Positions 17,309 through 47,500 of a stretch of 64,000 bases of DNA are shown here, one piece after another. This stretch comes from Bradyrhizobium sp. 186. Lineage in GTDB: Bacteria; Pseudomonadota; Alphaproteobacteria; Rhizobiales; Xanthobacteraceae. A program made the translations under genes and the position numbers. The notes beneath the pieces are model-generated. The model saw nothing but the letters and a program-made list of their open reading frames with translations, had not been told where the DNA came from and ran no database searches. The stretch lies in contig NZ_CP082165.1 in assembly GCF_023101685.1 (NCBI RefSeq), positions 1 through 64,000 on the forward strand, written 5' to 3'. Within the stretch, counting starts at the first letter, position 1. The number at the start of each line of letters is the position of its first letter.

Positions 17309-18743
17309 CATTACAGTTGCTTTGTTTGCGGGCTTCTGAATCCATGGGCAACCATGATTCGAATGTCGTGGACGCGGGCCGCGTCGGTTGAGGAGACGCT
17401 TGCGTTGTGGGCGGCGTCGCTTCGAGAGGTCAAGCAGCGGATACGTCCGTTGTTCACGCAAGAGCGTGTGGCGACGAATGCAGGCCTGTTCCTGGAAGGT
17501 CTGCTCGGAGATGAGCAGCGCAAGACCGGCTGGATGCGCGCGGAGGCGGCTGGCGATCCCGGCCCATGGCGTCAGCAGGCAATTCTGGGTCGCGGGGATT
17601 GGGACGCTGATGCCCTGCGCGATATCGTCCGCGACTATGTCATCGAGCACTTGGCGGATGACGATGCGGTGCTGGTGATCGACGAGACCGGCTTTCTCAA
17701 GCAGGGTAAGGCCTCATGCGGAGTGGCACGGCAATACACTGGTTCGGCAGGGAAGATCACGAACTGCCAGATCGGCGTCTTCGCTACCTACGTTTCGCGT
17801 CATGGTCATGCGTTCATCGATCGCGCGTTGTATCTTCCGAAGGAATGGACCGACGATCCAGATCGTCTGGAAGCCGCATATGTGCCTGCCGATGTCGGCT
17901 TTGCGACCAAACCAAAGCTTGCGACGAGAATGATCGCACGTGCGATAGCCGCGTCTGTACCATTCAAGTGGGTTGCCGGTGACACGGTCTACGGTGTTGG
18001 CGATATCGAACAGCAGCTACGGCGGGCAGGCAAAGGCTATGTGCTCGGGGTCAGCAGCTCTCATGTCTTCCGATCCTGGGGCAAGCGACAGCCGGTCGCC
18101 GGCAAGGCCGAAGACATCGCCCGGACGCGGCGCCCGTCCGACTGGAAGCGCTTGTCGGCGGGAGCCGGAACCAAAGGACCGAGGCTGCATGACTGGTGTT
18201 ATCTCGAACTGGCCGATCTCGAGGTCGAGCAGTTCAACAGCGCAAATGATGGTTTATGGACGCGCGGTCTGCTGATCCGTCGCCATATCGCCGATGGCGA
18301 TCTCGCCTTCTTCACCACCTGGTGCCCAGCGGGAACATCAATTGAAACGCTGGTCGCGGTCGAAGGCCATCGATGGGCGATCGAGGACAGCTTTGAAACC
18401 GCGAAAAACGAGTTCGGGCTCGATCACAACGAGAGCAGGTCCTGGCATGGCTGGCATCGCCACGTGTCCCTGGTGATGCTCGCCTTCGCCATGATGGCGG
18501 CGATCCGCCATCGCGCCAATCCGCCACCGCCCAAAAAAACCAAACGCCGCCCCCCGGCAAAAGCCAAAGCACACCCACGCCGCCGCTGATCCGTTGGTCA
18601 ATCCAGGAAATCCGCCGCATCGCCATCAGGCTTGCTCGAAAGCGGATCCAACCCGCGCATGTCATCGCATGGTCATTCTGGCGCAGAGCTCACCAGGCTG
18701 CCGCTCAGCGCGCGCATCTCAAAGCAAAACGGCAACTGTAATG
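17309..18743 (+). mobile_element. IS701-family insertion sequence, copy 1
   Basis: 1435 bp with terminal inverted repeats starting CATTACAGTTGC at both ends and flanked by the 4-bp duplication TTAG (17305-17308 and 18744-18747). TTAG fits the YTAR-type target known for IS701. Confidence 0.88.
17354..18589 (+). CDS. IS701 transposase, copy 1
   Basis: 411 residues of the DDE transposase superfamily. Candidate catalytic residues are the Asp in VLVIDETGFLKQGK, the Asp in KWVAGDTVYG and the Glu in HRWAIEDSFETAK, the last matching the family's conserved C-terminal motif. A basic Pro/Lys/Arg tail closes the protein. It looks intact. It differs from copy 2 by Val/Ile at LREVKQRIRP and a few silent changes clustered near 17430-17640. 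Confidence 0.93.
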   Translation: MIRMSWTRAASVEETLALWAASLREVKQRIRPLFTQERVATNAGLFLEGLLGDEQRKTGWMRAEAAGDPGPWRQQAILGRGDWDADALRDIVRDYVIEHLADDDAVLVIDETGFLKQGKASCGVARQYTGSAGKITNCQIGVFATYVSRHGHAFIDRALYLPKEWTDDPDRLEAAYVPADVGFATKPKLATRMIARAIAASVPFKWVAGDTVYGVGDIEQQLRRAGKGYVLGVSSSHVFRSWGKRQPVAGKAEDIARTRRPSDWKRLSAGAGTKGPRLHDWCYLELADLEVEQFNSANDGLWTRGLLIRRHIADGDLAFFTTWCPAGTSIETLVAVEGHRWAIEDSFETAKNEFGLDHNESRSWHGWHRHVSLVMLAFAMMAAIRHRANPPPPKKTKRRPPAKAKAHPRRR

Positions 18744-25220: not shown

Positions 25221-26655
25221 CATTACAGTTGCCGTTTTGCTTTGAGATGCGCGCGCTGAGCGGCAGCCTGGTGAGCTCTGCGCCAGAATGACCATGCGAT
25301 GACATGCGCGGGTTGGATCCGCTTTCGAGCAAGCCTGATGGCGATGCGGCGGATTTCCTGGATTGACCAACGGATCAGCGGCGGCGTGGGTGTGCTTTGG
25401 CTTTTGCCGGGGGGCGGCGTTTGGTTTTTTTGGGCGGTGGCGGATTGGCGCGATGGCGGATCGCCGCCATCATGGCGAAGGCGAGCATCACCAGGGACAC
25501 GTGGCGATGCCAGCCATGCCAGGACCTGCTCTCGTTGTGATCGAGCCCGAACTCGTTTTTCGCGGTTTCAAAGCTGTCCTCGATCGCCCATCGATGGCCT
25601 TCGACCGCGACCAGCGTTTCAATTGATGTTCCCGCTGGGCACCAGGTGGTGAAGAAGGCGAGATCGCCATCGGCGATATGGCGACGGATCAGCAGACCGC
25701 GCGTCCATAAACCATCATTTGCGCTGTTGAACTGCTCGACCTCGAGATCGGCCAGTTCGAGATAACACCAGTCATGCAGCCTCGGTCCTTTGGTTCCGGC
25801 TCCCGCCGACAAGCGCTTCCAGTCGGACGGGCGCCGCGTCCGGGCGATGTCTTCGGCCTTGCCGGCGACCGGCTGTCGCTTGCCCCAGGATCGGAAGACA
25901 TGAGAGCTGCTGACCCCGAGCACATAGCCTTTGCCTGCCCGCCGTAGCTGCTGTTCGATATCGCCAACACCGTAGACCGTGTCACCGGCAACCCACTTGA
26001 ATGGTACAGACGCGGCTATCGCACGTGCGATCATTCTCGTCGCAAGCTTTGGTTTGGTCGCAAAGCCGACATCGGCAGGCACATATGCGGCTTCCAGACG
26101 ATCTGGATCGTCAGTCCATTCCTTCGGAAGATACAACGCGCGATCGATGAACGCATGACCATGACGCGAAACGTAGGTAGCGAAGACGCCGATCTGGCAG
26201 TTCGTAATCTTCCCTGCCGAACCAGTGTATTGCCGTGCCACTCCGCATGAGGCCTTACCCTGCTTGAGAAAGCCGGTCTCGTCGATCACCAGCACCGCAT
26301 CGTCATCCGCCAAGTGCTCGATGACATAGTCCCGGACGATGTCGCGCAGGGCATCAGCGTCCCAATCTCCACGACCCAGGATCGCCTGCTGACGCCATGG
26401 GCCAGGATCGCCAGCCGCCTCCGCGCGCATCCAGCCGGTCTTGCGCTGCTCATCTCCGAGCAGACCTTCCAGGAACAAGCCTGCATTCGTCGCCACACGC
26501 TCTTGCGTGAACAACGGACGTATCCGTTGCTTGATCTCTCGAAGCGACGCCGCCCACAACGCAAGCGTCTCCTCAACCGACGCGGCCCGCGTCCACGACA
26601 TTCGAATCATGGTTGCCCATGGATTCAGAAGCCCGCAAACAAAGCAACTGTAATG
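25221..26655 (-). mobile_element. IS701-family insertion sequence, copy 2
   Basis: 1435 bp with CATTACAGTTGC at both termini and the 4-bp target CTAA duplicated at 25217-25220 and 26656-26659. The first base of the left duplication is the last base of the IS5 element. Confidence 0.88.
25375..26610 (-). CDS. IS701 transposase, copy 2
   Basis: 411 residues, full length with the same DDE residues as copy 1. It has Ile in place of Val at LREIKQRIRP plus a few nucleotide differences near its 5' end. The clustering of differences there hints at gene conversion or different ages of the 5' part. Confidence 0.93.
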   Translation of the reverse strand: MIRMSWTRAASVEETLALWAASLREIKQRIRPLFTQERVATNAGLFLEGLLGDEQRKTGWMRAEAAGDPGPWRQQAILGRGDWDADALRDIVRDYVIEHLADDDAVLVIDETGFLKQGKASCGVARQYTGSAGKITNCQIGVFATYVSRHGHAFIDRALYLPKEWTDDPDRLEAAYVPADVGFATKPKLATRMIARAIAASVPFKWVAGDTVYGVGDIEQQLRRAGKGYVLGVSSSHVFRSWGKRQPVAGKAEDIARTRRPSDWKRLSAGAGTKGPRLHDWCYLELADLEVEQFNSANDGLWTRGLLIRRHIADGDLAFFTTWCPAGTSIETLVAVEGHRWAIEDSFETAKNEFGLDHNESRSWHGWHRHVSLVMLAFAMMAAIRHRANPPPPKKTKRRPPAKAKAHPRRR

Positions 26656-33258: not shown

Positions 33259-33843
33259 ATGGGACTGCTTTTTGTTGGAGTGCTGGCAGGAGTCCTGATC
33301 GGCTTTGGCTGGTTCGCGCCTTCCCGAGGGTATTTCCTTGGGTGTGCGTCACGACCCTGTTTCGACAGGGTTGCAGTCGCCCGACCCGCGCAGCCAATGC
33401 CGCCGGCATTGGCGCCAGATCCTGCGGTCGTCAAATCGAATTCTGCAACGCCGGCAAGGCCTGGCAGGAAATCATCTCCGAAGAAACGCGGATCGGCCGA
33501 CCTCGCCAAAGCGGCGTCCCCGCGGACGAGGATCAGCGTCCCGGCATCCGAACGGCCCGCGGAAATATCAGATCCTTCCCTGGACAAGGCGAAGGTCGCG
33601 ATCGAGACGAAGATGGAGGATTCAGAATCGGCCGAATTCAGCGACATGAAGCGCGCAATGCGAAAGAACATGCTTGGACGCCGCGTGGATACGATTTGCG
33701 GGCGTGTGAAAGGAAGAAGCGCGTCAGGCGGCGAGACTGGAGAGAGGCCGTTTCTGTATCTCGTGAAGGAGGATGAAGCATATGTCGTCGATGGCAAGTC
33801 GGGGTCGGCGGCGTCAACCGCGTATCGAAATATCTGCAATTAA
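33259..33843 (+). CDS. Hypothetical membrane-anchored protein
   Basis: 194 residues with GAGGAGGGG 6 bp before the ATG. The N-terminal hydrophobic helix MGLLFVGVLAGVLIGFGWF anchors a disordered, basic Pro/Ser/Lys-rich middle. The folded C-terminal part has VDTICGRVKGRSASGGETGE and PFLYLVKEDEAYVVDGK, with two cysteines that could bond in the periplasm. It precedes the LuxR gene on the same strand but with a 214-bp gap. Function unknown. Confidence 0.6.
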   Translation: MGLLFVGVLAGVLIGFGWFAPSRGYFLGCASRPCFDRVAVARPAQPMPPALAPDPAVVKSNSATPARPGRKSSPKKRGSADLAKAASPRTRISVPASERPAEISDPSLDKAKVAIETKMEDSESAEFSDMKRAMRKNMLGRRVDTICGRVKGRSASGGETGERPFLYLVKEDEAYVVDGKSGSAASTAYRNICN

Positions 33844-34057: not shown

Positions 34058-34840
34058 ATGCACGACATAACCAACACCTCAAAACGGCTCAATGAATCGC
34101 TTCACTTGCCGGTTCTGGTGATCATCGAGCCGCTCCTGTTGCCTCGCACATGCATTCTGAACGTCCTCAGGCGGGAATTGGACGAATTTGAGATCCTTGA
34201 CATGGCAACGGCCCAAAGCCTGGACTGCACGTCAGCCCGCGATGTTCGTCTGGTGGTGCTGAGTATCGCGGACCAGCCGATCGGCGATCCCTCGGTTGAG
34301 AACGATCTCGCCTTCGTTGCGGAGTGTTGTCCCAACGCCGCCGTTGCAGTCCTGTCAAACCATGACGACGAGCCGACCGTGCAGGCCGCGATGCAGCGGG
34401 GTGTGCGCGGCTTTCTTTCCACCTCGCTACCGATCGAGATCGCCATAGCTGGCCTGCGCCTTGTTCTTGTCGGCGGCGTCTACAGGCCGTTGCCCGTGGC
34501 CGGGATGAACAGGATACCAGATTTCGAGCCGCCGGATGCGCGCGGGCTTGCGCCCGCATATCTGATGAACGAGGGAGCCAGAGTGGCTATCGACAGGAGC
34601 GTGACCGATCTCACGCCTCGTGAGCAACAGGTTCTGGCGGAATTGGAGCTCGGCCTGCCCAACAAGCTGATCGCCGCCAAATTGATCCTCTCGGAAAGCA
34701 CAGTCAAAATGCACATCCAGCATATCATGAGGAAATGTGCTGCGCACAATCGCACAGAAGCCGTCCTCCGCTGGCGCGGCCGGTTGCCCGCGCGGACTCG
34801 CGATCACGACCCCGGCGCAGCTCTAATGCCGGAGACCTAA
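34058..34840 (+). CDS. LuxR-family response regulator
   Basis: 260 residues with GAGGAAATC before the ATG at 34058. The N-terminal receiver-like domain (VLVIIEPLLLPRTCILNVLR, then VRLVVLSIADQP) lacks the clear acidic pocket and phosphorylation Asp of a normal receiver, so it may be phosphorylation-independent. The C-terminal LuxR helix-turn-helix (DLTPREQQVLAELELGLPNK, KLILSESTVKMHIQHIMRK) is complete. It converges with the T1SS operon across a palindromic repeat. Inference: regulator of the secretion locus. Confidence 0.8.
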   Translation: MHDITNTSKRLNESLHLPVLVIIEPLLLPRTCILNVLRRELDEFEILDMATAQSLDCTSARDVRLVVLSIADQPIGDPSVENDLAFVAECCPNAAVAVLSNHDDEPTVQAAMQRGVRGFLSTSLPIEIAIAGLRLVLVGGVYRPLPVAGMNRIPDFEPPDARGLAPAYLMNEGARVAIDRSVTDLTPREQQVLAELELGLPNKLIAAKLILSESTVKMHIQHIMRKCAAHNRTEAVLRWRGRLPARTRDHDPGAALMPET

Positions 34841-34841
34841 A

Positions 34842-34886
34842 GCATGATCCGGAAAAGTGCGCAGCGGTTTTCCGAAAAGATCATGC
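34842..34886. repeat. Bradyrhizobial palindromic repeat, unit 1
   Basis: GCATGATC pairs with GATCATGC, enclosing CGGAAAA / TTTTCCG: a nested hairpin of a kind scattered through Bradyrhizobium genomes. It lies between two convergent genes and may serve as a terminator. Confidence 0.7.
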
Positions 34887-34900
34887 TCAAACAACAACCT

Positions 34901-34939
34901 AAAGCGCGATGACGATTCATCCCAATCTCGTCGCGCTTT
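34901..34939. repeat. Bradyrhizobial palindromic repeat, unit 2
   Basis: AAAGCGCGA pairs with TCGCGCTTT. The stop codon of the adaptor gene lies partly within this hairpin, so it ends the operon's last message. Confidence 0.65.
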
Positions 34940-36410
34940 AGTCCTCTCTGAATGCACCGCGGAAGCTGTCGAGCAGGGGCCTGAGCGCGTAGAGAGCCAC
35001 GGTACCGCGCCCTGTCGTGATGAACACTTGAACCGGCATCCCGGGGACGATCTGGATGTCGTTTGCGACGATCTGCGCGTCGTCGATCCGGATTTTGGTC
35101 GCGTAGTATGGCTGGTCGGTACGCTTGTCGAAGAGCCGGTCTGCGGATACGTGCACGACGGTTCCCTTCAGGCGAGGCACGCGACGCTGATTGTACGGTA
35201 CGAGGTGAACCTCGGCATTGAGGCCGGGATGAACCACATCGATGTCCTCGGGCCTCAGGCGCGCGGTCACGATGAGGCGGTCTTGCCGGGGCACCAGGTC
35301 CATGAGCGGAGCACCCGCTCCGATGACGCCACCGGCTGTATGAATCCGCAGATCGGTTATCACGCCGTCCTCGGGCGCCTTGACCTCCGTTCGCGATAGC
35401 TGATCCCTGGCCGCAAGCAACCGCTCGCGGAGCTGGAATATCTGGTTCTGTGCTACACGAAGCGATTGTGCGATCTCGTTCTGCCTCTCGCTCTCGAGCT
35501 TGAATAATGTGGCCTGCTGTTCGCTGATGACCTGCCCGGCGCGGGAAATCTGCGCGGCGATCTCGCCGCGGCGGCCCTCAACGTCGGCCAGCTCCCGCTG
35601 CAGGTTCAGAAGCCGCGGCCGCCGTTCGAGTCCCTTGTTGACGAGGGTCGCGACCATATCCAGTTCTTCTCGGACGATGTCGATCCGCTGCCCGGTGGCG
35701 TTTTCCTGAGCCTTGAGACCTTCGATCTCCTTCTCGACTTGACGCCTTCGTTCGCGAATGACCGCAAGCTGCGACTCGTGAACCTGCAGGCGTGCCTGAA
35801 AAATGAACTGCTGCGCCGACACCGCAGCGGCGGCCACCCCGTTCTGCTTGCTGTCCTGTTCCAGCGCGTCCGGGATTGCGATCCTCTCAAATCTCTGCTG
35901 CTCGGCCTGAAGCCGTGTGGCACGAGCAACTGCATCCCACAATTGGCCTTGAAGGCTTTGCATCTCCGAGCCGGCCCGGGTGTCGTCCAGCGCGATCAGC
36001 GTTTGGCCGCTTCGCACGATATCGCCATCCGAAACCAGGATCTTCCTGACGATACCGCCTTCCAGATGCTGAATCGTCTTGCGGCTCGATTCCGATTCCA
36101 CGACGCCGGACGCGATCGCGGCGCTCTCGAGAGGCGCGAGGCTCGCCCATGTACCAAGCCCCAGCATGAAGCAGAGCACCAGCAGATTGCCTGCGACGGT
36201 GATACCGCGAAGCCTTCCGCGCGGAGAGGTCGGCGTGGGCGTCGAGCACCATGGAAATTCCAGAGGCTCGAAATCGTCGATTGCGGTCACCACGACGCCA
36301 GATCGCGGGGCGGGCGGGGGGCTCGCCGGCGCTCGCATGAGCTGGTCCCAGATCATGGGAAGTCTCGAGACGGCGGGAAGTTTCCAGATGGTGAGAGAAT
36401 TCCAGATCAT
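34938..36410 (-). CDS. Type I secretion periplasmic adaptor (HlyD/PrtE family)
   Basis: 490 residues. A cytoplasmic tail rich in Pro is followed by one membrane helix (GNLLVLCFMLGLGTW), a biotinyl-lipoyl half (VRKILVSDGDIVRSGQTLI), long coiled coils at about 160-370 and the closing half-lipoyl/beta-barrel (VKAPEDGVITDLRIH, then MDLVPRQDRLIVTARL). The adaptor links the inner-membrane ABC exporter to an outer-membrane TolC protein. Its start overlaps the exporter stop by 4 bp (ATGA), showing translational coupling. No TolC gene is adjacent. Confidence 0.93.
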   Translation of the reverse strand: MIWNSLTIWKLPAVSRLPMIWDQLMRAPASPPPAPRSGVVVTAIDDFEPLEFPWCSTPTPTSPRGRLRGITVAGNLLVLCFMLGLGTWASLAPLESAAIASGVVESESSRKTIQHLEGGIVRKILVSDGDIVRSGQTLIALDDTRAGSEMQSLQGQLWDAVARATRLQAEQQRFERIAIPDALEQDSKQNGVAAAAVSAQQFIFQARLQVHESQLAVIRERRRQVEKEIEGLKAQENATGQRIDIVREELDMVATLVNKGLERRPRLLNLQRELADVEGRRGEIAAQISRAGQVISEQQATLFKLESERQNEIAQSLRVAQNQIFQLRERLLAARDQLSRTEVKAPEDGVITDLRIHTAGGVIGAGAPLMDLVPRQDRLIVTARLRPEDIDVVHPGLNAEVHLVPYNQRRVPRLKGTVVHVSADRLFDKRTDQPYYATKIRIDDAQIVANDIQIVPGMPVQVFITTGRGTVALYALRPLLDSFRGAFRED

Positions 36411-38152
36411 GGCGCAATCTGCGAAGTAACCTGGGGTCGGCTCAGGTGCCGTTCAAAGATGTCCTCGCTGTCGCCGAACGCGGCGACCGCACCGTCTTCC
36501 ATGATGGCAATCTTGTCCGTGGCGGCGAGGAGACCCATCCGGTGAGTGACGACGACAAGGATGACGCCTGCGAGCTTCATGCGCTCGATGGCATCCAGGA
36601 GCATTCGCTCGCCCCGGTAGTCGAGGCTGGCGTTGGGTTCGTCGAGAACGATGAGGCGCGGACTGCCGAAAAAGGCGCGGGCAAGACCGAGGCGCTGCCG
36701 ATACCCGCGTGAGAAGGTTGTTTCACTGTGAACCACCGTGTCGTAACCCCGCGGCAGGCGCATGATCGCCCCATGGATTCCGACGAGCTTGGCCGCTTCG
36801 ACGACCTTCTGCCGGTCGGCATCTTCAAGGCGTGCGATGATGTCGTTGATTGTGTCGCCGAGCAGGTTGATGTCCTGGGGGAGATATCCGAGGCGGTCGC
36901 CGTTTCGGCCCTCGCGAAGCAGCGAGACGTCGGTATTGTCGAGGAGGACACGGCCATGCGTTGGCATCGACAGCCCGGCGATCACCTGGCCGAGCATGGA
37001 CTTGCCTGACCCGGACGGACCGATAATGCCAAGGCATTCTCCGGGCATGAGGCTGAACGAGACGTCGTTCAGCAGAAGATGGCTGGTCCCCGCAAGCCTC
37101 ACGCCAACATTGTCGACGACGAGGCCACTTGGCGCCTGCAGCGGAGAAACCTCCGCGCTCTGCTGCCGGGCGACGGGGAATGCGGCGAGAAGTGCGCCGA
37201 GCCGCTGACAGGCGCTCACGGCCGTCACGAGTGATTTCCAGCCTGCGACCGCACTTTCGACCGGCGCGAGCGCCCGGCTGAACATCAGCGTAGAAGCAAA
37301 GATGATTGCCGGACTCTTCCCGTGATCGAGGACGAGCCATGCGGCAGCCCCCATGATCAAGACCTGCGACAGCGCGCGAACCGGCTTGGTGGCCAGTGAG
37401 ACGATCTCGCCTCGCCGGAGTGCCACATCGTGCTCTCTGCGCGCGTGCTGCGCGTCACGGTGGATCATGCGCGCAGCGCTATCGAACATTCCCATGGCGC
37501 GGATCATGTGGATGTTGCCCGCGGCAGTCTGGAGGCGGCCGCAGCTTCTGGACAGCGCGGCGCCGGATCTGAGCAGAACGTCTTCCGTGACCAGCTCTCC
37601 GGCAACCGTGAGCGCGAAAAGGAAGGCGACGCAGCAGGCGCCCACCACGCCAAGCAGGGGATGGATCAGAAAGAGGACAAGGAGGAATAAGGGCGCCCAG
37701 AGCGCGTCGAACAGCATCGGACATGCGCCGGACTCGACGAACTGGCGCAGCACGGTGAGATCCCGATATGCGCCCGACGCTTGCGTCCAATCGCTGCGAA
37801 GCGCCGATTCGAGGCTGGCCGAAAGCACGCAAGGGCGAAGGCGATCGTCGAGCCAGGCGCCAAGGCGTCCAAGGACGGCGCGCCGCAATGCATCGAACAC
37901 GCCGCCGACGACCACCGTGATCGCGACAATGAGCGTGAGCAGGAGCAACGTGTCGCCGCTCCGGCTCGACAACACCCGGTCATAGATCTGAAGAAGATAG
38001 ATGGAGGGCGCAAACAGAAGCAGGTTGTAGCTGCAGCTATACGCGAATACGAGACCGAGCGGTCCCGTGCAGGACCGGAGGGCTGCGTGCAGTGGCGTCC
38101 GGATCTGCGGCAGGATAGGCAACCGAATGGGCGGCATCAGCATGATCGTCAC
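36407..38152 (-). CDS. Type I secretion ABC transporter, permease plus ATPase
   Basis: 581 residues. The N-terminal part has about six membrane helices (PrtD/LipB type); the C-terminal nucleotide-binding domain is at about 345-570. Walker A is GIIGPSGSGKSMLG, Walker B is RLIVLDEPNASLD, and the H-loop is VVTHRMG. The ABC signature is unusual, FSRGYRQRLGLARA instead of the common SGGQRQRIGLARA. There is no N-terminal peptidase domain, so substrates use a C-terminal signal. It lies downstream of two repeat-protein genes in the same orientation, so these are its likely cargo. GTG is the first possible start; an ATG 9 bp later is as likely. Confidence 0.9.
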   Translation of the reverse strand: MTIMLMPPIRLPILPQIRTPLHAALRSCTGPLGLVFAYSCSYNLLLFAPSIYLLQIYDRVLSSRSGDTLLLLTLIVAITVVVGGVFDALRRAVLGRLGAWLDDRLRPCVLSASLESALRSDWTQASGAYRDLTVLRQFVESGACPMLFDALWAPLFLLVLFLIHPLLGVVGACCVAFLFALTVAGELVTEDVLLRSGAALSRSCGRLQTAAGNIHMIRAMGMFDSAARMIHRDAQHARREHDVALRRGEIVSLATKPVRALSQVLIMGAAAWLVLDHGKSPAIIFASTLMFSRALAPVESAVAGWKSLVTAVSACQRLGALLAAFPVARQQSAEVSPLQAPSGLVVDNVGVRLAGTSHLLLNDVSFSLMPGECLGIIGPSGSGKSMLGQVIAGLSMPTHGRVLLDNTDVSLLREGRNGDRLGYLPQDINLLGDTINDIIARLEDADRQKVVEAAKLVGIHGAIMRLPRGYDTVVHSETTFSRGYRQRLGLARAFFGSPRLIVLDEPNASLDYRGERMLLDAIERMKLAGVILVVVTHRMGLLAATDKIAIMEDGAVAAFGDSEDIFERHLSRPQVTSQIAP

Positions 38153-38284
38153 CGCCTGAAATCGAGGTCCGGCGCACTTGACCGATGGCCAACGTCATCT
38201 GCCAACGGTATCGGCGGGATATTGGCTCGAACTTCCGGACCGGTGGCAGTGGCCACCGGTCCTGCCAGTCGGACGAGCCGGTGG

Positions 38285-38743
38285 TCAGAACGTATCGAGA
38301 TGGAAGCTCACTTCTCCGCCCAGCGCGGCGTTGCCGTCTCCGCCATTGCCGCCGATGCCGGCCACGACCTCCTGGTGCTGGTCCACCGAGACCTTGTTGA
38401 TCTGGGTCGCATCCGTATTGGCGTATACCTTGGAGGTATCGTGACCGCTGTAGGATTTCTGGCTTCCGTTCGACTCGGCGTCTCCGCCATGGGCCTTCGA
38501 GAACAACGAGGCCTTCGCGTTGGCGCCGCCGGCATCCCAATCCGCCGTCTGCTTGACGTGATCGCCGGTGTTCACGTGCACGTCGGCACCTTCCGCCTTG
38601 TTGGTTGGATCGAAGTTGAGCGTCGGCTTGCTGATGATGGCGCCCTTGAAGGTGCCGTCGCCGCCATTTCCGACGTTTTGACCACCGGTGTTGATCGATT
38701 TGAACTCGATCGAGTCCGAGATGTTGATCGCTTTGGGCAACAT
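38285..38743 (-). CDS. Small glycine-rich repeat protein, probable T1SS cargo
   Basis: 152 residues. A strong AGGGAGG lies 6 bp before the ATG. It begins MLPKAINISDSIEFKS and then shows the module seen four times in the neighbouring protein: VGNGGDGTFKGAIIS, later KVSVDQHQEVVAGIGGNGGD and GNAALGG. It ends EVSFHLDTF. There is no Sec signal peptide and no cysteine, and acidic and Gly/Asn-rich sequence is typical of type I cargo. It does not carry canonical RTX nonapeptides (GGxGxDxUx). Function unknown. Confidence 0.7.
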   Translation of the reverse strand: MLPKAINISDSIEFKSINTGGQNVGNGGDGTFKGAIISKPTLNFDPTNKAEGADVHVNTGDHVKQTADWDAGGANAKASLFSKAHGGDAESNGSQKSYSGHDTSKVYANTDATQINKVSVDQHQEVVAGIGGNGGDGNAALGGEVSFHLDTF

Positions 38744-39008
38744 TTGAGCCTCCCTGTTTCTGTTGGCTTTCGTGCATCATCCATCCCGATCAGGCGGACG
38801 CGCGCGACAAGTCTGATCCGCCCACGCGCGATGGCGATAGATGTCAATTCGGACACCATCCGGTTTGGTCGACCTACGTACGAAAGTATGACATTCGTCG
38901 CGCAACATCGGAGCTCGAAACATCCGGGAGGGCCCGCAGGGCGAGCTTGCATGCGCAGAGTGTCGACGCAGCTCGCGATCGGGCTTGTGCGAGCGGCGCG
39001 ATGTTTCG

Positions 39009-40433
39009 CTAACCCATCAGGTGAAGATCCGACAGAAGATGGGAAAGATCGCCACCCAGCGCGAGATTGCCGTTGCCGCCGTCCCCGCCAACACCGGCGA
39101 TCTGGACCGCACTCTGGTCGATGTGCACGTTGTTGACCTGATCGGCTACGGCCGTCGAATGGGGACCTGCGATTGCGATATTGATGGGTGCATATATCGC
39201 GACGCTGACATCGATCAGGCTGCCGGCAAAATATCCGTTGCCACCATTGCCTGCGCCGTTCGAACCGGTCGCGATCGCGTCGGAGCCGCCCCACAAGCCA
39301 TGGGAAAGAAGGCTTGCATGGCCGCCCGCCGCGGCGTTGCCGTTGCCGCCGTGCCCGCCAATCCCGGCGATCTGAATGATGGATTGATCCACGTAGGCGT
39401 CATTTGTCTGGACCGAATGAGCGTTGGAGCCATAGCCCGCGACTGCGATGTTGATCGGGTCGTAAAGTACAAAGGAGGTATGGACGAGTCCCCCGTAGAA
39501 CGCGCCGTCACCGCCATTGCCGGCCTGGCTTCCGCCCGTTTGAACGTCCCAGACGCTCCCTCCATTGCTTGATCCCCAGTTGGGGTCCAGCGTGATGATG
39601 CTGCCGCCGGCGGCCACGTTGCCATTTCCGCCGCTTCCGCCGACGCCGGCGATCTGAGTGGCCGATTGATCGATGTCGACCGTGTTCGATTGACTTGCAT
39701 GCGCAGTGCCGCCTAAGCCCGCCACCGCAATATTGATCGGATGATAGATCACCACGGGAGCGTCCACTATCGCACCCGAGAAATAGCCGCTGCCGCCGTT
39801 TCCGGCGCCGTTGTCGCCGCTCGCGATCACGCCGGAGCCCGAGGACGTACTGACGCTCCCTCCCGATGCAATGTTGGCATTGCCGCCATGGCCGCCGACG
39901 CCGGCCATCTGAAAGGCGGATTGATCGACATTCAAATTGTTGGACTGGTTGGCCAGGGCGACCGAGCCGTATCCCAAGCTCACCGAGATGTTGATCGGTT
40001 CATAGATCAACACGGACGCGTGGATGATCCCTCCATAAAAGTAGCCATCCCCACCGTTCCCGGCCGTGTTCACCCCACTCTCGACCGAAGCAATGCCCAT
40101 CCCGGGATGTGATGCACCGGAAGCGGGCGTGGTGGACGAAACATCCAGGCCCGCCGCAGCGTGGCTGCCCGTGTCGACCCCCGATGTGGGATGTTCGGAT
40201 TGAACCGGGTCGGAGTCATTATGCTGGGTACTCGCGCTCGCGGGGTGCGCTTCAAGATCTGCAAATTGACCTGCAAACAGGCCGGGACGATGGACCAGGG
40301 CGCCACCGCCGACCGCGTCAGCCACGAACGGGGCACTCGGCGCAGGGCCCGGTTCGCCCTCGCCATCGTACCCATCGTGGTGATGAGAGGCGTGATGCAG
40401 CCGGATTCCATCCGACATCCGCGAAAAATCCAT
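39009..40433 (-). CDS. Large glycine-rich four-module protein, probable T1SS cargo
   Basis: 474 residues from the ATG preceded by AGGGAGG (a Met five codons earlier has no site). A His/Gly/Pro-rich N-terminus (1-115) contains no Sec signal. Four modules of about 69 residues follow, at about 124-192, 210-277, 304-371 and 394-461, each starting GNGG-G-F-G and ending AG-GG-GGN-N-A-GG with a central PINI and a VDQS/IDQS motif. Variable Ser/Gly linkers separate them. The last module ends GNLALGGDLSHLLSDLHLMG, similar in shape to the end of the small neighbour. It probably forms a beta-rich surface or matrix protein. Confidence 0.7.
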   Translation of the reverse strand: MDFSRMSDGIRLHHASHHHDGYDGEGEPGPAPSAPFVADAVGGGALVHRPGLFAGQFADLEAHPASASTQHNDSDPVQSEHPTSGVDTGSHAAAGLDVSSTTPASGASHPGMGIASVESGVNTAGNGGDGYFYGGIIHASVLIYEPINISVSLGYGSVALANQSNNLNVDQSAFQMAGVGGHGGNANIASGGSVSTSSGSGVIASGDNGAGNGGSGYFSGAIVDAPVVIYHPINIAVAGLGGTAHASQSNTVDIDQSATQIAGVGGSGGNGNVAAGGSIITLDPNWGSSNGGSVWDVQTGGSQAGNGGDGAFYGGLVHTSFVLYDPINIAVAGYGSNAHSVQTNDAYVDQSIIQIAGIGGHGGNGNAAAGGHASLLSHGLWGGSDAIATGSNGAGNGGNGYFAGSLIDVSVAIYAPINIAIAGPHSTAVADQVNNVHIDQSAVQIAGVGGDGGNGNLALGGDLSHLLSDLHLMG

Positions 40434-40729
40434 CGTAGCCTCCCTCATCGCAATCGCTCCGCGCGATCGGACGGGTTCTGCACTCCGGACAGAATGTCAT
40501 CCTGGGAAGGTCGAAAGCCCAGTCGTCAGTTCGGATATAGCGCTTCGTCTGGCGGCCGTAACATCGGCTACATCCGTTCGGCTACAGTTACAGCCTTTGC
40601 AACTCTGCGTGGGCCGATGCTTGAAAGTGCGACCTTGAGGGGATGGCGAAAATGGACAATCGAGCTGATGGCCAGGCCTGCGGTCAAAATGAATCCACCG
40701 CGTTGCCGGATTTAAGTCGCATTGCGACC

Positions 40730-41369: not shown

Positions 41370-41948
41370 CTATCTGTTCTTCGGGTGTAGCTCTGGCACC
41401 GGGCGCCCAGGTACCCATCTCAATGCAAACTGCTGGCCGGCAGCGATCTCGTTGCTGGAGAGCTTTGATGCGACCGCATCCCGGAACCTGAGATAGACGT
41501 CCCGTTGTCGCCCGCCTGTGCGGGCCGCTGCCAGGTTGAGCCATTTGTACGCAAGCACGAGATTGTTGGGCACGCCGTGGCCCTTGTCATACATTAGGCC
41601 GAGCATGGCTTGTGCGAACGGGTCTCCCTGCAAGGCCCCGCGACCGTAGAGATCAGCGGCGGCGTCATAGGCCTGCGGAACGCCGAAGCCATGCTCATAC
41701 ATGAAGCCAAGCAGGCCGAGCGCTTTCGCGTTGCCGCGTTCGGCTGGCGGCGAGAGCTCCCGAAGTGCGCGGGCATAGTCGCCGCGATGGAAGGCGGCGG
41801 ATCCACGCGAGACACTATCGGCACGCGCGACGCACGTCGTCGGCGTCAAAAGTGCAATAGCAAGCAACGCCCAGAGGAGCGTCCGCGGCGCAAGCGCGCG
41901 AATCGCTGCCCGGCCCGGCTCAGTGGAAACTGGTGGTGATCGGCGCAT
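41370..41948 (-). CDS. Exported Sel1-repeat (TPR-like) protein
   Basis: About 192 residues. The start chosen at 41948 leaves a Sec signal peptide (LLWALLAIALLTPTTCVARA) and overlaps the end of gspD by 29 bp, indicating coupling. Three Sel1-like repeats follow (AKALGLLGFMYEHGFGVPQA, AQAMLGLMYDKGHGVPNNLV and a final partial one with YKWLNLAAA). Sel1 repeats mediate protein contacts. Position suggests an accessory factor of the type II system, but its role is not known. Confidence 0.75.
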   Translation of the reverse strand: MRRSPPVSTEPGRAAIRALAPRTLLWALLAIALLTPTTCVARADSVSRGSAAFHRGDYARALRELSPPAERGNAKALGLLGFMYEHGFGVPQAYDAAADLYGRGALQGDPFAQAMLGLMYDKGHGVPNNLVLAYKWLNLAAARTGGRQRDVYLRFRDAVASKLSSNEIAAGQQFALRWVPGRPVPELHPKNR

Positions 41949-44289
41949 TGGTCGATGTGGTGGCGATGCTGCCGCGCAATCTCGATCGAAGTTCCTCGGC
42001 AACAACTTGGGCATCGGAACCGTTGCGGATGATCTGGGGTCGAATGAAGATGATCAGCTCGGTGCGCTGGGTCGCGTTGCTCTGATGTCCGAAGGCGTCA
42101 CCAAGGCCGGGAATCTGGTCGAGCACGGGCAGCGCGTTGCGGTTGCCGCTCTGCTGCTCGCTGATGAGGCCCGCCAGCAGCACGGTCTGGCCATTGGCCA
42201 CCGCGATTTGGCTCTTCACCCGGCGTTCCGATACCGTCGGCGTCAGGCTGTTCGCGCTGGTTTGAGGCACGTTGCTGATCTCCTGCTCGACGTCGAGCCG
42301 CACGGTGCCGTTCACGCTGACGCGTGGCGAGACCCGCAGGATGATGCCTGTGTTGCGATAGTCGATGGTGTTGACCACCGTGTTACTCGTTGTCAGCACC
42401 GTCGCACTGCCAGTCGACACCGGCACGACGTCGCCGACCTGCAGCGTCGCCACCTGGTTGTTGATCACCACCAGCGAGGGATTGGAGAGCACCTTGACGC
42501 TAGTGACGGCATGCAGCGCATCCAGGATCAGGCTCGGCTGCGTCTCGGACCCGATCAGGAAATTGAAGCCCGGGAAGGCCCGGTTGATGAAGGCATTGGT
42601 GACCGAGCCCGCCAGCGAGACGGCGCCGGTGGTCGCGTCCGTGACAGTCGAGGGCGCCGTGGTGGCCTGGGTGCCAAGGATCGAGCCGGTGTTCGGCTTC
42701 AGGCCAAGGTTTTGGCTGGTGAGATAGGTCTGCACACCATAGGACAGGGAGTTGTTGAGCGTGACCTCCGCGATCGTCGCGTCGATGGCAACCTGGAGCT
42801 GCGGCTCGTCGATCTGCAGCAGCGTCGACTCGATGATGCGGTAGTTGGCCTGGTCGGCATAGATCAGGAGATTGTTGTTCACGACATCGGGCGTGATCCG
42901 CACGTCCTGCATGACGGGCTGGCCATTGCCGCCGCCTGAGCTGGAGCCGCGTCCGCTATCGAGCGCGGCATTGTTGCCCTGGCCTGGATTGGGACTATTC
43001 GCTTGCCCTCCAGCGCCAATGCCCTGGCCCGTCGCGCCTGTCCCTGACGTGCCGCGGGATGCGAAGCCGCCCATGCTCGAATTCGAGTTGCCGTTGTTGA
43101 GCGACAGTCGGTCGGCGACGCTTGAGGTCGATGAGGTGCCGGAGCCGGGCGCGAGCTGGCTGTCGACGCTGTCGAGCAAATTGCCGGACGAACCGCCGAG
43201 GAACATGTCGGTCAGAACCCGCGCCATCTGGCGCGCATCGCCGTATTTGACGCGGTAGACATGGACCGTGGTTCGCGCGGTGTCATTGCGGTCTAGGCGC
43301 TTGATCCAGGTCGCGGCCGTGTGCAGCATGTCCGGCTTCTTGGTCACCACCAGCACCGCGTTCAGGCGTGCGATCGGCATGAATTTGATGACGTTCTGGC
43401 TGAGGCCGTTCTCGCCGGAATCGACGATCTTCTCCAGCTCGGCAATGACGGGTGCCGGCGAGCCGCTCGAGATCGGGAAGATGCCGACGGATTGACCGCG
43501 CATCCAGTCGACGTCGAAGCTGAGCACGGTGTCGACAGCGGTGCGGCGCTCGGCCCCGGTGCCCTGGATCAGAAGCAGATTTCGCGTCGTGTCGGCGCGG
43601 ATCGCGCCCGCCCGGGTGGCGAAGCTGTCGGTCAGCTTCAGCAGGGTCTGTGCCGACACATATTGCAGGGGGACCACCGAGATGCCGAATCCGGGCTCGG
43701 GATTGGCTGCCGCGGCATCGACGCGGCCACCGCCGACGGCGTCGCCGAGCGGCGTCAGGCGATAGCCCGCCGTGTCATGCAACAGCACGACGCCGCTCAG
43801 GCGGAGTGCGTTTTCAAGCACGAAGACCATGTCGGATTTCGGCACCGGGCGGACCGACACCAGGCTGACCGTGCCCTGCACCCGTGGGTCGATGGTGTAT
43901 CCGAAATGCAGGATGTCGCCGAGCACGACCTTGGCGACGGTCGCCACTGGCGTGCTCTCGAAATTCAGATCGAAGCCATTGCCGTTCGGCGTCAGCTGCA
44001 GCCGCGCGTCCGCGACCGCGGCCGCTTCGCTTCCGTCATACATCGCCGGGCGGACGCTGCCGCCCTGGCTGCCGGTCGTCGGCGCCAGCGCGCTCACCGA
44101 TTGGGGCTGGCGCGGCAGCAGATCCAGCGAGCGCACTTTGTCGGTGACGTCGAGCTGAGACCCGTCCACGCTCTCGCTGACCGTCGCGGAATTGCAGGAC
44201 GCCAGCAACCCCAGCGACGTCAAGACGAAAACGGCTGCCAGGCCGCCACGGATCGTCGGGCAGCGGCCCACTGTGCCTACGCGTTGCAT
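41920..44289 (-). CDS. gspD: Type II secretion secretin GspD
   Basis: 789 residues. The N-terminus has a lipoprotein-like signal ending LLASCN, so the protein may be lipidated and pilotin-independent. N0 to N3 ring domains are followed by a Gly/Ser/Asn-rich insertion (about 370-450) and the secretin domain with VLSNPSLVVINNQVATLQVG and the final LIIFIRPQII. GspD forms the outer-membrane pore. It is transcribed away from gspE-N. Confidence 0.92.
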   Translation of the reverse strand: MQRVGTVGRCPTIRGGLAAVFVLTSLGLLASCNSATVSESVDGSQLDVTDKVRSLDLLPRQPQSVSALAPTTGSQGGSVRPAMYDGSEAAAVADARLQLTPNGNGFDLNFESTPVATVAKVVLGDILHFGYTIDPRVQGTVSLVSVRPVPKSDMVFVLENALRLSGVVLLHDTAGYRLTPLGDAVGGGRVDAAAANPEPGFGISVVPLQYVSAQTLLKLTDSFATRAGAIRADTTRNLLLIQGTGAERRTAVDTVLSFDVDWMRGQSVGIFPISSGSPAPVIAELEKIVDSGENGLSQNVIKFMPIARLNAVLVVTKKPDMLHTAATWIKRLDRNDTARTTVHVYRVKYGDARQMARVLTDMFLGGSSGNLLDSVDSQLAPGSGTSSTSSVADRLSLNNGNSNSSMGGFASRGTSGTGATGQGIGAGGQANSPNPGQGNNAALDSGRGSSSGGGNGQPVMQDVRITPDVVNNNLLIYADQANYRIIESTLLQIDEPQLQVAIDATIAEVTLNNSLSYGVQTYLTSQNLGLKPNTGSILGTQATTAPSTVTDATTGAVSLAGSVTNAFINRAFPGFNFLIGSETQPSLILDALHAVTSVKVLSNPSLVVINNQVATLQVGDVVPVSTGSATVLTTSNTVVNTIDYRNTGIILRVSPRVSVNGTVRLDVEQEISNVPQTSANSLTPTVSERRVKSQIAVANGQTVLLAGLISEQQSGNRNALPVLDQIPGLGDAFGHQSNATQRTELIIFIRPQIIRNGSDAQVVAEELRSRLRGSIATTSTNAPITTSFH

Positions 44290-44607
44290 GAAGGCCCTTC
44301 GCTCTGACTGATATTTCGATTGCTGCGACGATCTGTCCTGCCCCGGGGGGTTCTTAGCGAGCGTTCATGACAGAAATAAATTGCTTACATGATTGTCGTT
44401 CGCGACCTGCCTATCGCGTCGCACCCAAATTTGTGCAGCCGGTGCGTTGCGCGTCCGCGATGCCACCTCAAAATTTCTTGAGCGAGGCGAACGATGTGAC
44501 TTCGCACAGCTGTCACACTTCGGGTCGATAACTGGCGACTTGACGGGAGCCGAACGGCGCCAGCGCCTCGGCGCGAGCTGATCCAGGATAGCGTGGCGGG
44601 ATAAAGA
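44290..44607. promoter_or_regulatory. Divergent promoter region between gspD and gspE
   Basis: A 318-bp gap with no gene that must carry promoters for both halves of the type II system. I did not identify a known operator or sigma-54 motif. Confidence 0.5.
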
Positions 44608-46284
44608 ATGGCGAACGATCTGTCCGTTCGGTTCGTGGATTATCTCCGTCAGAACAATCACCTTGCGCCGATCGATGGGCCAGCCGACCGCACCAGGCAG
44701 GGCGCCGACAACAGGCAGTTGAAGCTGTGGGAGGTCACCAGTCTCTCGCCCGCCGAATTCGCCGACGAAGCCGCGCGCTTCTTCGGGCTAGGGCGCCTGG
44801 CGCTCCAGGAGATGATGGCGGCCGAACCGCTGGTCGGGTCGTTCTCGCAGCGTTTTTTGCGCGAGACCATGGTCTATCCGTGCAGAGCCTCCGATGGAAG
44901 CGCGACGCTCGCGGTGGTTGATCCGACCGATCGGGCGACGCAGCGGGCGGCGCAGATCGTGCTCGGCGCCGGCATAACGGTCAAAGTAGCGTCGTCGGAA
45001 GACGTCGCCATCGCGCTGAACAACAGCTCCAGTGCCGAGGAGACCGAGGCCACTGAACTGGCGGCGGCCCTGCCTCGCGAAGACGACATCGAGAGCCTGC
45101 GCGACCTCGCCAGCGGCGCGCCGGTGGTGCGCGCGGTCAACGATCTGATCGAGAAGGCCGTCGAGCTTCGCGCCAGCGACATCCACATCGAGCCGTTTGC
45201 CGCCGGTCTCATGGTCCGGCTGCGGATCGATGGCCTGTTGCGACCGGTTGCGGCGCTGTCGGGCGTGCTGCCGCAGGCGGTAGTCTCCCGCATCAAGATC
45301 ATCGCCAACCTCAACATCGCCGAGCGCCGCCTGCCGCAGGACGGCGCGGCGCGGCTGCGGGCCGGCCGTACCGACATCGATATCCGCGTCGCGATCATGC
45401 CGACGCAACATGGCGAAGCCGCCGTCATCCGTATCCTGCCCAAGGATCGCGGCCTGCTGATGGTGGAAAAACTCGGATTTTCGCAGCCTGACGAAGCCAA
45501 GCTGCGGCGGCTCCTGAAGCTACCGCATGGTATGGTCGTTATCACGGGACCGACCGGCAGCGGCAAGACCACGACGCTGGCGACGATCCTGTCGATCCTC
45601 AACGAGCCGAGCCGCAAGATTCTCACGATCGAGGACCCGGTCGAATACGAGCTCCCCGGCGTCAACCAGTCCCAGATTAAGCCGGCGATCGGCCTGACCT
45701 TCGCCACCGCCCTGCGGTCCTTCGTCCGGCAGGACCCTGACGTCATCATGGTCGGCGAAGTCAGAGATTCCGAGACCGCGCACGTCGCGGTGCATGCAGC
45801 GCTGACCGGACATCTGGTGCTGACGACGCTGCACACCGAGACGGCGGCTGCCGCGGTGCCACGCCTGCTCGACCTCGGGGTCGAGGGCTATTTGCTCCGC
45901 TCGGTGTTGCGCGGCGTGATCGCGCAGCGTCTGGTCCGGCAATTGTGCGAGCGCTGCAAGACGGCACGGCCGCTTGCAACGGCTGATTTCACCGAGGATC
46001 CTCGGCTCGCCGCACTCGGGTTTCGGGCTGGCGAAATCATTCAGGAGCCATGCGGCTGCGAGCGCTGCGCCGGAACCGGCTATCGCGGTCGCCTCGGCGT
46101 GTTCGAGCTGCTCGAGCTGTCGAATGAACTGCGTGAACTGATCGGGGAGCGAACCGACGGACTGAAGATCGATACGATGGCGATCCGGGCGGGCATGACC
46201 ACGATGCTCGACGACGGGGTCGCGAAATGCCGTGCCGGATTGACCTCGCCCGCCGAGATCCTCCGCGTTGCGACGGTGCGGTGA
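44608..46284 (+). CDS. gspE: Type II secretion ATPase GspE
   Basis: 558 residues. The N-terminal GspE/PilB domain is followed by the ATPase core: Walker A VITGPTGSGKTTTLATIL, Asp box ILTIEDPVEYEL, Walker B VIMVGEVRDSETA and His box LTTLHTETAA. Two CxxC pairs (CERCKTARP, CGCERCAGTGYRGR) form the usual zinc site. It powers pseudopilus assembly from the cytoplasmic face. Confidence 0.95.
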   Translation: MANDLSVRFVDYLRQNNHLAPIDGPADRTRQGADNRQLKLWEVTSLSPAEFADEAARFFGLGRLALQEMMAAEPLVGSFSQRFLRETMVYPCRASDGSATLAVVDPTDRATQRAAQIVLGAGITVKVASSEDVAIALNNSSSAEETEATELAAALPREDDIESLRDLASGAPVVRAVNDLIEKAVELRASDIHIEPFAAGLMVRLRIDGLLRPVAALSGVLPQAVVSRIKIIANLNIAERRLPQDGAARLRAGRTDIDIRVAIMPTQHGEAAVIRILPKDRGLLMVEKLGFSQPDEAKLRRLLKLPHGMVVITGPTGSGKTTTLATILSILNEPSRKILTIEDPVEYELPGVNQSQIKPAIGLTFATALRSFVRQDPDVIMVGEVRDSETAHVAVHAALTGHLVLTTLHTETAAAAVPRLLDLGVEGYLLRSVLRGVIAQRLVRQLCERCKTARPLATADFTEDPRLAALGFRAGEIIQEPCGCERCAGTGYRGRLGVFELLELSNELRELIGERTDGLKIDTMAIRAGMTTMLDDGVAKCRAGLTSPAEILRVATVR

Positions 46285-46288
46285 CGCC

Positions 46289-47500
46289 GTGCCGAATTAT
46301 CGCTATCGAGCCCTGACCCAGGCTGGCGAGATCGTGAACGGCACGATCTCCGCCCCGACTGCGGCCGAGGTGGCGCGGCGGATCGAATATCTCAAGCTTC
46401 TGCCGATCGAAACCGCCGAGGACAAGCGCGCAACCGGCGCAGCGGGGGGCCGCAGCCTGTTCGGCGGGCCGAGTGCGGCCGAGGTCACCACCTTCACGCG
46501 CGATCTCGCGCTTCTGCTCAAGGCCGGTGCGCGTCTCGACGATGCGCTGGAGCTTCTGTCTGGCGATGCCGATGTCGGCCGGATGCGTCCGGTGGTGGCC
46601 AAAATTCGCGCAGCCCTGCTCACCGGCGAGAGCTTTGCCGATGCCGTATCGGATCATCCCACTTTGTTCCCGCCGATGTATATCGCCCTGGTTCGGGTCG
46701 GTGAAATCTCGGGTACGCTCGATTCCGTGCTGGAGATGCTGGGGACCGAGCGGGCACGTTCCGAGCAGATGCGGCGGAAGCTGACCGACGCGATGCAGTA
46801 TCCGGCCTTCGTGCTGGTCGCGGCATCCGGCGTGATGCTGTTCTTCCTGCTGTTCGTGCTGCCGCAATTCTCGACCGTGCTCGGCGATTTCGGCGGCAAA
46901 TCGGATACGGCGCTCGCCAGCTTCATTGCGGTTTCGGATTTCCTCCGCGCCAATGCGACGGCGGCAAGCCTGATCGCTGCCGCCGCGATCGCGCTCTCAT
47001 GGTGGCTGTTGCGGCAGGCGCGCGTGCGCGCCGCGCTGGTCAACGCGATCTCGCGGGTTCCGGGCATCAGCAGCGCCTTCCAGTTCTATCGCGCCAGCCT
47101 GTTCTGCCGCAATCTGGGCGTCCTGCTTGGCAGCGGCGTCAATCTCACCGCCGCGCTGCGCATTCTCGTCGACATCATGGCGGTGACCGGAAGCGAGGCG
47201 AACTGGACCGCCGCCGCCGACCGCGTCCGCCATGGCGGAAAATTATCGGAAGCACTCGCCGTGGCGGACAGCCTGCCGCCGATGGCGGTCCGCATGCTGC
47301 GGCTTGGTGAAGAGACCGGGCAGCTGCCGGTGCTCGCCGAGCGGGTCGCGGAATTCTACGAAGCAAAATTGCAGCGCAGCCTGGACCGTGTCGTTGGGAT
47401 CGTCGGTCCGCTGGCGATCGTTACCATCAGCACCGTCGTCGGCGGACTAATCGTGTCGGTCATGACGGCGCTGCTCTCGGTCACGCAGCTAGTCGGTTAG
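46289..47500 (+). CDS. gspF: Type II secretion inner-membrane protein GspF
   Basis: 403 residues from the GTG at 46289, 4 bp after gspE (a start inside gspE at 46268 is less likely). The N-terminus PNYRYRALTQAGEIVNGTI is typical. Two T2SSF domains are present, with helix pairs near 165-215 and 365-400 and the conserved LLKAGARLDDALELL and MRLGEETGQLP motifs. It anchors the ATPase to the pseudopilus platform. Confidence 0.94.
   Translation: MPNYRYRALTQAGEIVNGTISAPTAAEVARRIEYLKLLPIETAEDKRATGAAGGRSLFGGPSAAEVTTFTRDLALLLKAGARLDDALELLSGDADVGRMRPVVAKIRAALLTGESFADAVSDHPTLFPPMYIALVRVGEISGTLDSVLEMLGTERARSEQMRRKLTDAMQYPAFVLVAASGVMLFFLLFVLPQFSTVLGDFGGKSDTALASFIAVSDFLRANATAASLIAAAAIALSWWLLRQARVRAALVNAISRVPGISSAFQFYRASLFCRNLGVLLGSGVNLTAALRILVDIMAVTGSEANWTAAADRVRHGGKLSEALAVADSLPPMAVRMLRLGEETGQLPVLAERVAEFYEAKLQRSLDRVVGIVGPLAIVTISTVVGGLIVSVMTALLSVTQLVG

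Follow-up and report, generated by a model that had tools for sequence, protein, structure and literature searches.

What is exported by a type I secretion system that stands beside two glycine-rich repeat proteins? The question is raised by a stretch of 64,000 nucleotides from Bradyrhizobium sp. 186 (NZ_CP082165.1, positions 1 to 64,000, forward strand; hereafter the window), the beginning of its genome's second contig, in which four genes follow one another on the minus strand and a fifth converges on them from the plus strand. In order, the four encode P4, a four-module protein (39009..40433; 474 amino acids (aa), or 479 aa if an ATG at 40448 is used), P1, its small relative with a single split module (38285..38743; 152 aa), an ATP-binding cassette (ABC) permease/ATPase of type I secretion, PrtD-like by its profile matches (36407..38152), and a HlyD-family periplasmic adaptor whose gene overlaps that of the ABC protein by 4 bp (34938..36410). 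The convergent gene encodes a LuxR/NarL-type regulator with a degenerate receiver (34058..34840), its start being placed as in relatives, with another ATG at 33989. The starts of P4 (40433) and of the LuxR gene (34058), already given in a preliminary description of this DNA, are the likely ones, further ATGs lying upstream of each. These genes appear to constitute a five-gene unit of soil and root-nodule bacteria in two families, with the two glycine-rich proteins as its export cargo.

Judged from the company that the genes keep, P4 and P1 are very probably exported by this exporter. A P1 profile found matches in 92 of 265 Bradyrhizobium genomes, and a close relative of the exporter (E ≤ 1e-150) was present in 91 of the 265, a set identical to the 91 genomes with a full-length P1, which ruled out a chance neighbourhood of cargo and exporter. 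P1 and the exporter were found on one strand at a distance of 86-360 bp (median 139) in 90 of these 91, and the remaining genome has them on different contigs owing to a contig break. Because the survey relied on the P1 profile, it would detect P4 on its own only weakly. Patterns of P4 led to 35 named contigs, 33 of which keep the gene order P4-P1-ABC-HlyD-LuxR followed by a gene for a 194-aa protein, with shortened open reading frames (ORFs) in a few of them (longest HlyD 317 aa in locus L019 and 239 aa in L033; ABC 511 aa in L027). The two exceptions are L007, which stops at the contig edge, and L022, which holds P4 only. Of 15 plasmid records with P4, 13 also have an exporter no more than 1.4 kb away, and two of these records resemble one plasmid. 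The preliminary description had suggested surveying the module for co-occurrence with type I secretion genes; with an exporter in 91 of the 92 P1-profile genomes, in addition to the contigs and plasmids above, the module does not occur mainly without one.

In wider samples the P1 profile matched 3 of 198 genomes of the family, all of them Bradyrhizobium (1 of 47 genera), and 1 of 385 genomes of the class, namely that of the window, whilst the module profile matched 4 of 347 genomes of the order (2 of 134 genera) and 4 of 121 of a second family (4 of 109 genera). This second home is the Rhizobiaceae in the wide sense, comprising Rhizobium (leguminosarum, ruizarguesonis, pisi, tropici and gallicum), Ensifer/Sinorhizobium, Phyllobacterium, Neorhizobium, Aminobacter and Brucella anthropi, and the unit was found both on chromosome-size contigs and on plasmids. 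All five genes were present in three Rhizobiaceae genomes, at identities of 50-52% for the exporter, 56-58% for the adaptor and 41-45% for the LuxR protein; at one of these loci P4 is inverted, with the LuxR gene on its other side. When four Rhizobiaceae loci were compared with 33 Bradyrhizobium loci, all-against-all and with ORFs of at least 60 aa, the LuxR, P4, ABC and HlyD genes recurred in all four, the recurrence of P1 resting on profile and locus data because the filtered search does not pick up a protein of such low complexity. No sixth ORF of at least 60 aa was common to these loci, a comparison that short, fast-evolving or unlinked genes would escape. An ABC-ATPase-like ORF of locus L092 matched elsewhere in 21 of the 33 Bradyrhizobium loci and was absent from the other Rhizobiaceae loci. 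Separately, a plasmid of Bradyrhizobium sp. 195 that is typed as conjugative (NZ_CP082162.1, L118) bears the unit, which may therefore move between strains, and in one Bradyrhizobium genome a further P1-like match, made up of two pieces (G546:C1:5571926-5572507), lies 0.7 Mb from the main locus.

Copies of P4 lacking an adjoining exporter were broken or truncated in all of the approximately four lineages examined, a set outside which the surroundings of most listed P4 relatives lie. The 92nd Bradyrhizobium genome (G599) has only three P4 modules and a best exporter relative of at most 38% identity, and is probably the same case as L022 (Bradyrhizobium SSUT77), in which the N-terminal part is in a different frame, the sequence stops after module 3 and P1 is absent. 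In an Aminobacter (genome G1212, locus L108), P4 is broken across frames on a contig that ends about 0.5 kb to one side; in a Phyllobacterium (L116), the pieces of P4 are in differing frames, P1 is cut and an exporter is absent within 13 kb; and in Rhizobium CC1099 (L117), P4 residues 2-187 are joined directly to the second half of HlyD. Errors of assembly could account for the frame breaks of L108 or L116. A 44-45% identical exporter, encoded in G1212 on a contig other than that of P4 and also in a genome with no P4 match (G1244), was taken for a paralogue. Because the exporter accompanies the cargo, and because the exporter-less copies of P4 are damaged, the earlier suggestion that the module marks a new class of type I cargo seems well supported by co-occurrence.

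The four modules of P4 are each about 70 residues long, have linkers in between, and are encoded on the minus strand at 39852..40064, 39597..39806, 39318..39524 and 39048..39254 (profile A3, E 1.3e-29, 7.4e-31, 1.7e-30 and 1.2e-32, respectively), and lie at aa 129, 215, 309 and 399 if the ATG at 40448 is position 1. The count of four agrees with the preliminary description, which had also ascribed one copy to P1; the latter has instead two half-modules in the correct order (minus strand, 38546-38674, E 1.3e-5, and 38309-38431, E 4.8e-9, profile A3), with about 65 aa of conserved insert between them. When a profile was built from 13 modules, four of which are from P4 itself and none from P1, it scored 110.6 bits with P4 and 39.3 bits with P1, far above the best of 500 shuffles of each (6.8 and 7.5), and their likeness is therefore not one of chance composition. 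There are 17 invariant columns in 13 divergent modules, including Q40, N42, Q48, Q52, N64 and ten glycines, and the pattern [QN]-x-N-x5-Q-x3-Q-x-[AG]-G was present, with 767 matches, in every one of 236 relatives above 300 aa in length and in none after one shuffle of each. Relatives of P4 at E ≤ 0.001 numbered 851 among 8000 candidates scored; within the best 120 of the 851, the module count is four in 95 and five to eight in 25, and it is four in 104 of 116 scored in a second set, modules being counted as profile hits above 20 bits, individually unchecked. Most P4 relatives are modular proteins of about 350-500 aa, rich in Gly, Ala, Ser and Asn. In a module tree the clustering was by position inside each family, with no pairing across families, and we therefore make no claim about the age of the four-module array.

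As previously described, neither P4 nor P1 has a strongly hydrophobic N-terminal stretch or a Sec signal that we could find, and neither contains a GGxGxDxUx nonapeptide of the canonical RTX type; 6 of 360 relatives have one match and none has two or more. Scans of both proteins against Pfam and NCBIfam gave no match above any cut-off. Matches to Abhydro_lipase (E 0.0064) and yjeF (E 0.073) were taken as composition hits, as was DUF4774 in one Rhizobiaceae P4 (E 0.00032, below cut-off), a domain that is also precomputed for one listed relative. The 479-aa form of P4 contains no Cys, no Lys and four Arg, and 113 of 120 P4-type and 119 of 120 P1-type proteins among the matches listed are free of Cys. 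The tail that follows module 4, here ALGGDLSHLLSDLHLMG, is conserved, with Asp474 and His476 invariant across 49 rows, and is a candidate C-terminal export signal. Some relatives bear the database name 'PE-PGRS family protein' and, like the PE_PGRS proteins of mycobacteria, contain GGxGG runs; P4 and P1 differ from these in lacking a PE domain and any Pfam match that reaches its cut-off, and the name looks like a composition artefact.

The exporter is of the PrtD type by its profile scores. The ABC protein scored 503.7 bits (E 5.8e-151) with TIGR01842, slightly below the cut-off of 510.15, the next family, TIGR03375, reaching only 247.6 bits, and no peptidase domain was among its Pfam matches; the adaptor scored 377.6 bits with TIGR01843 (cut-off 208.65). 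Together with the ORFs, these scores confirm the earlier account, in which two same-strand module genes precede a type I ABC exporter and its HlyD adaptor. With PrtD/PrtE (AprD/AprE, PrsDE) the locus shares a PrtD-type ABC protein, a HlyD-family adaptor, the lack of an outer-membrane gene and cargo with no recognisable Sec signal; unlike in those systems, the cargo has no RTX nonapeptides or Pfam family, and the ABC protein falls just short of the family cut-off. The locus had been called self-contained, which it is not, because no outer-membrane channel gene (OEP/TolC) lies within it; the 16 PF02321 matches of the genome are all on its contig C1, and the locus is on C2. Type I secretion is itself known, and what is new, by the literature searched, is the cargo family and the two-gene arrangement. 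A possible, unverified entry in PMC8457355 apart, no description of P4 or P1 was found in that literature, including the available part of PMC10925705, its partial coverage making this weak evidence of absence.

Both cargo genes are preceded by AGGGAGG (40439-40445 before P4 and 38749-38755 before P1), which had been noted as a box common to both and, from its sequence, resembles a strong ribosome-binding site rather than any special element. Further upstream, a motif scan located a common element on the minus strand, TCCGAACTGACGACT before P4 (40521..40535) and TCCGAATTGACATCT before P1 (38839..38853). The pattern TCCGA[AT][CT]TG[AG]C had 48 matches in 789 kb (39 loci), placed by script as 28 upstream of P4 (86-109 nt), 17 near P1 and three unplaced, a count that is descriptive because the pattern was derived from these same alignments. 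Near P1 the element is mostly at 110 nt, deviating distances stemming from miscalled starts. A longer form of it has two perfect copies in the window, which are the two cargo sites, and a third match with two mismatches; 0.74 matches were expected, and 3 of 100 shuffles reached three. The shorter pattern had no match in four Rhizobiaceae loci. A second candidate site, CGKAYGTAGNYCGA, showed no excess over chance, a promoter scan returned one hit against 1.4 expected, and terminator-like sites (seven against 3.8 expected, all within the gene span) were left unused. In the receiver of the LuxR protein, all 12 aligned rows have Thr or Pro where Lys is usual. The phospho-acceptor position of the family alignment is Ser or Asn in nine Bradyrhizobium rows and Asp in three Rhizobiaceae rows; in a HMMER pairwise alignment to 2qsj the counterpart is instead an Asp lying three residues later, a position held by His in one row. 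A receiver lacking the phosphorylation residues marks CsgD/VpsT-like regulators, and by these alignments the likeness to them is mixed. Control of the cargo genes by the LuxR gene, as previously proposed, may be inferred from their linkage in two families and from the motif common to both cargo upstream regions in Bradyrhizobium.

We propose, at a probability of roughly 0.6, that the locus is a type I secretion unit dedicated to two cargo proteins of one module family, which would form a beta-rich matrix or adhesin outside the cell. Linkage and motif suggest that the LuxR-type regulator, with its degenerate receiver, would activate two cargo promoters that have the upstream element in common. 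Lacking a Sec signal and nearly all Cys, and in P4 nearly all Lys/Arg, the two proteins would be recognised through a C-terminal tail at the ABC-HlyD pair, with which they are observed to co-occur, and a channel from elsewhere in the genome would complete the exporter across the outer membrane. The modules of P4, with five conserved Asn/Gln each and variable Gly-rich linkers, would stack as beta layers into a surface or matrix polymer, of which P1 would be a minor subunit, cap or nucleator. That P4 and P1 are extracellular structural proteins is slightly favoured, and the adhesin or matrix role already suggested for them is plausible. Prediction of the module structure, also suggested earlier, was partly informative: the P4 model has beta strands in each module and a core predicted local confidence (pLDDT) of about 90, but the P1 prediction was uninformative, fold searches with P4 against PDB and viral libraries gave no significant match, and a PDB profile search gave 0 matches.

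That such a polymer would be amyloid-like is possible but less likely than not, the structure model for this being weak and no structural or sequence match being significant. In common with FapC/FapB and CsgA/CsgB, there are imperfect repeats with conserved Asn/Gln, variable linkers and a smaller partner; the usual repeat number is three in FapC and four in P4, with longer forms of both. The differences are in the export route and in the absence from P4 and P1 of a Sec signal, a sequence match or a significant fold match. Among the 236 relatives longer than 300 aa, none had curli repeats (Ser-x5-Gln-x4-Asn-x-Ala-x3-Gln) or a FapB-like repeat motif (our own pattern, adapted from PMC12392863), and the curlin family was absent from the Pfam matches of P4 at E ≤ 1. 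A third bacterial functional amyloid architecture, a two-subunit fibre of root-associated Hyphomicrobiales made of modules with conserved Asn/Gln and glycine, with P4 as the major subunit, P1 as nucleator or cap, its own type I export and a LuxR-type regulator, is a still more tentative idea; CsgD is likewise a LuxR-type regulator. Such a fibre could have been long hidden because its major subunit is almost without Lys and Arg.

In its Rhizobium form, the exporter is quite likely, on sequence grounds, the TobDE system of R. leguminosarum 3841, the study of which is reportedly by Krehenbrink and Downie. At locus L092, where P4 is about 94% identical to R. leguminosarum proteins, the exporter is 53% identical to that of the window, and the five other exporter relatives of that genome reach 36-39%; the match is made likely by these values and by a report, in the available part of PMC2275737, that a B. 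japonicum protein with similar surroundings is 52% identical to TobD. That part also gives TobDE as the type I exporter RL0623/RL0622 and states that the 10 kb around tobDE encode none of the known type I substrates. Single, double and triple mutants were tried, the tob mutants were unchanged in supernatant proteins, biofilm and nodulation, the tobD mutant nodulating pea normally, and the exporter was termed enigmatic; gels had been stained with colloidal Coomassie G and tryptic digests fingerprinted (PMC2275737, as available). The two systems are alike in the adaptor gene beside the ABC gene and in the 52% and 53% identities, and differ in that no cargo was known there, whereas for the present unit we propose a LuxR gene and two cargo genes beside the exporter. 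P4 and P1 may be the missing cargo of TobDE, which was reported in 2008. Three Rhizobium P4 proteins of 362-364 aa have two Lys/Arg each, both within the first 13 residues, and 109 P4 relatives (the 120 listed minus 11 dropped for length) have medians of one Lys/Arg and 0 tryptic peptides of 6-30 residues; the median is 11 Lys/Arg for Bradyrhizobium P1, and two Rhizobiaceae P1 have none. Coomassie staining depends on basic residues, and P4, in which they are nearly absent, would therefore be hardly visible to Coomassie gels and tryptic fingerprints.

Other functions for secreted P4 and P1 were weighed against the polymer. The modules might form a monomeric, non-polymerising beta-solenoid adhesin, or a protein that binds exopolysaccharide or the plant wall. 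The beta strands predicted in each module would suit this, and rhizobial PrsDE cargo include adhesins and glycanases (Rap, Ply; available part of PMC2275737), yet the Asn/Gln conserved in every module and the single-module partner look, by analogy, more polymer-like, so that a monomeric adhesin is possible and rather unlikely.

Clearly less probable is a bacteriocin of two proteins, P4 and P1, held on the cell surface, acting by contact and exported through type I secretion. The precedent is CdzC/CdzD of Caulobacter, also two glycine-rich proteins of an alphaproteobacterium, which use a type I system and aggregate on the producer (available part of PMC5380434), and the two glycine-rich cargo genes adjoining the exporter and their patchy spread (91 of 265 genomes) would fit. 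An immunity protein could be imagined in the 194-aa protein encoded at 33259..33843 (plus strand), which has no Pfam match, is syntenic in Bradyrhizobium (33 of 35 loci) and has a hydrophobic N-terminal stretch as judged by eye. However, it has no counterpart in the Rhizobiaceae loci L092, L107 and L109 and is probably outside the core unit, and no candidate immunity gene is common to both families, in which no ORF of at least 60 aa beyond the five recurs, short, fast-evolving or unlinked immunity genes escaping this comparison. P4 is also larger and modular, about 350-500 aa in most relatives, and in this unlike a small hydrophobic glycine-zipper peptide.

A NodO-like role, as a soluble secreted signal or effector directed at the plant, is similarly improbable. 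Hosts of the unit are frequently root, nodule or soil isolates. In Table 4 of PMC8457355 (as available), the 17 genes associated with nodulation of pea cv. Afghanistan include a 'PE-PGRS family protein' and the hypothetical gene numbered directly after it; 3841, Vaf10 and TOM carry both on the chromosome, three other strains lack them, and eight strains were compared. One Rhizobium P1 is annotated 'PE-PGRS family protein', and it is possible, as yet unverified, that this pair is P1 and P4. Against an effector role stand the normal pea nodulation of the tobD mutant (PMC2275737, as available) and the Pfam and NCBIfam scans, in which no enzymatic or known effector domain was found. Finally, it is hardly credible that the cargo genes have a cytoplasmic role and neighbour the exporter without any relation to it, given P1 and exporter in identical sets of 91 genomes, a unit kept across two families, cargo that is damaged where the exporter is gone and the near absence of Cys.

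The surroundings of the locus contain several further features. A type II secretion-like cluster adjoins it (41370-47500), consisting of a secretin GspD (41920-44289, minus strand), a GspE-type ATPase (44608-46284, plus strand) and a GspF-type protein (46268-47500, plus strand), beside a Sel1-repeat protein (41370-42014, minus strand); the GspD and Sel1 genes had no match at E ≤ 1e-8 in 35 Bradyrhizobium contigs. Elsewhere in the window, a 411-aa DDE transposase occurs in two inverted copies about 7 kb apart (17354-18589, plus strand, and 25375-26610, minus strand; 410 of 411 residues identical), and there is an IS66 transposase at 11959-13695 (minus strand). Directly after HlyD, three Rhizobiaceae loci have a small ORF, alike by eye (L092, 15474-15812; L107, 15518-15787; L109, 14542-14844), of which the two copies scanned, those of L092 and L109, match PF01527 (HTH_Tnp_1), making it a candidate transposase-derived regulator or insertion sequence remnant. 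About 7 kb from the locus copy in L109 is encoded a 578-aa Gln/Asn/Gly-rich protein of another family (157-1893, minus strand), with no meaningful Pfam match, which is possibly another unusual extracellular protein.

If P4 and P1 do polymerise, they would constitute a type-I-secreted matrix polymer, and an amyloid made in this way would take a different route from that of Sec and an outer-membrane porin. For the rhizobia, P4 and P1 offer a concrete candidate cargo, accessible to experiment, for an exporter described as enigmatic in 2008, and the composition of P4 would explain why it escaped detection earlier.

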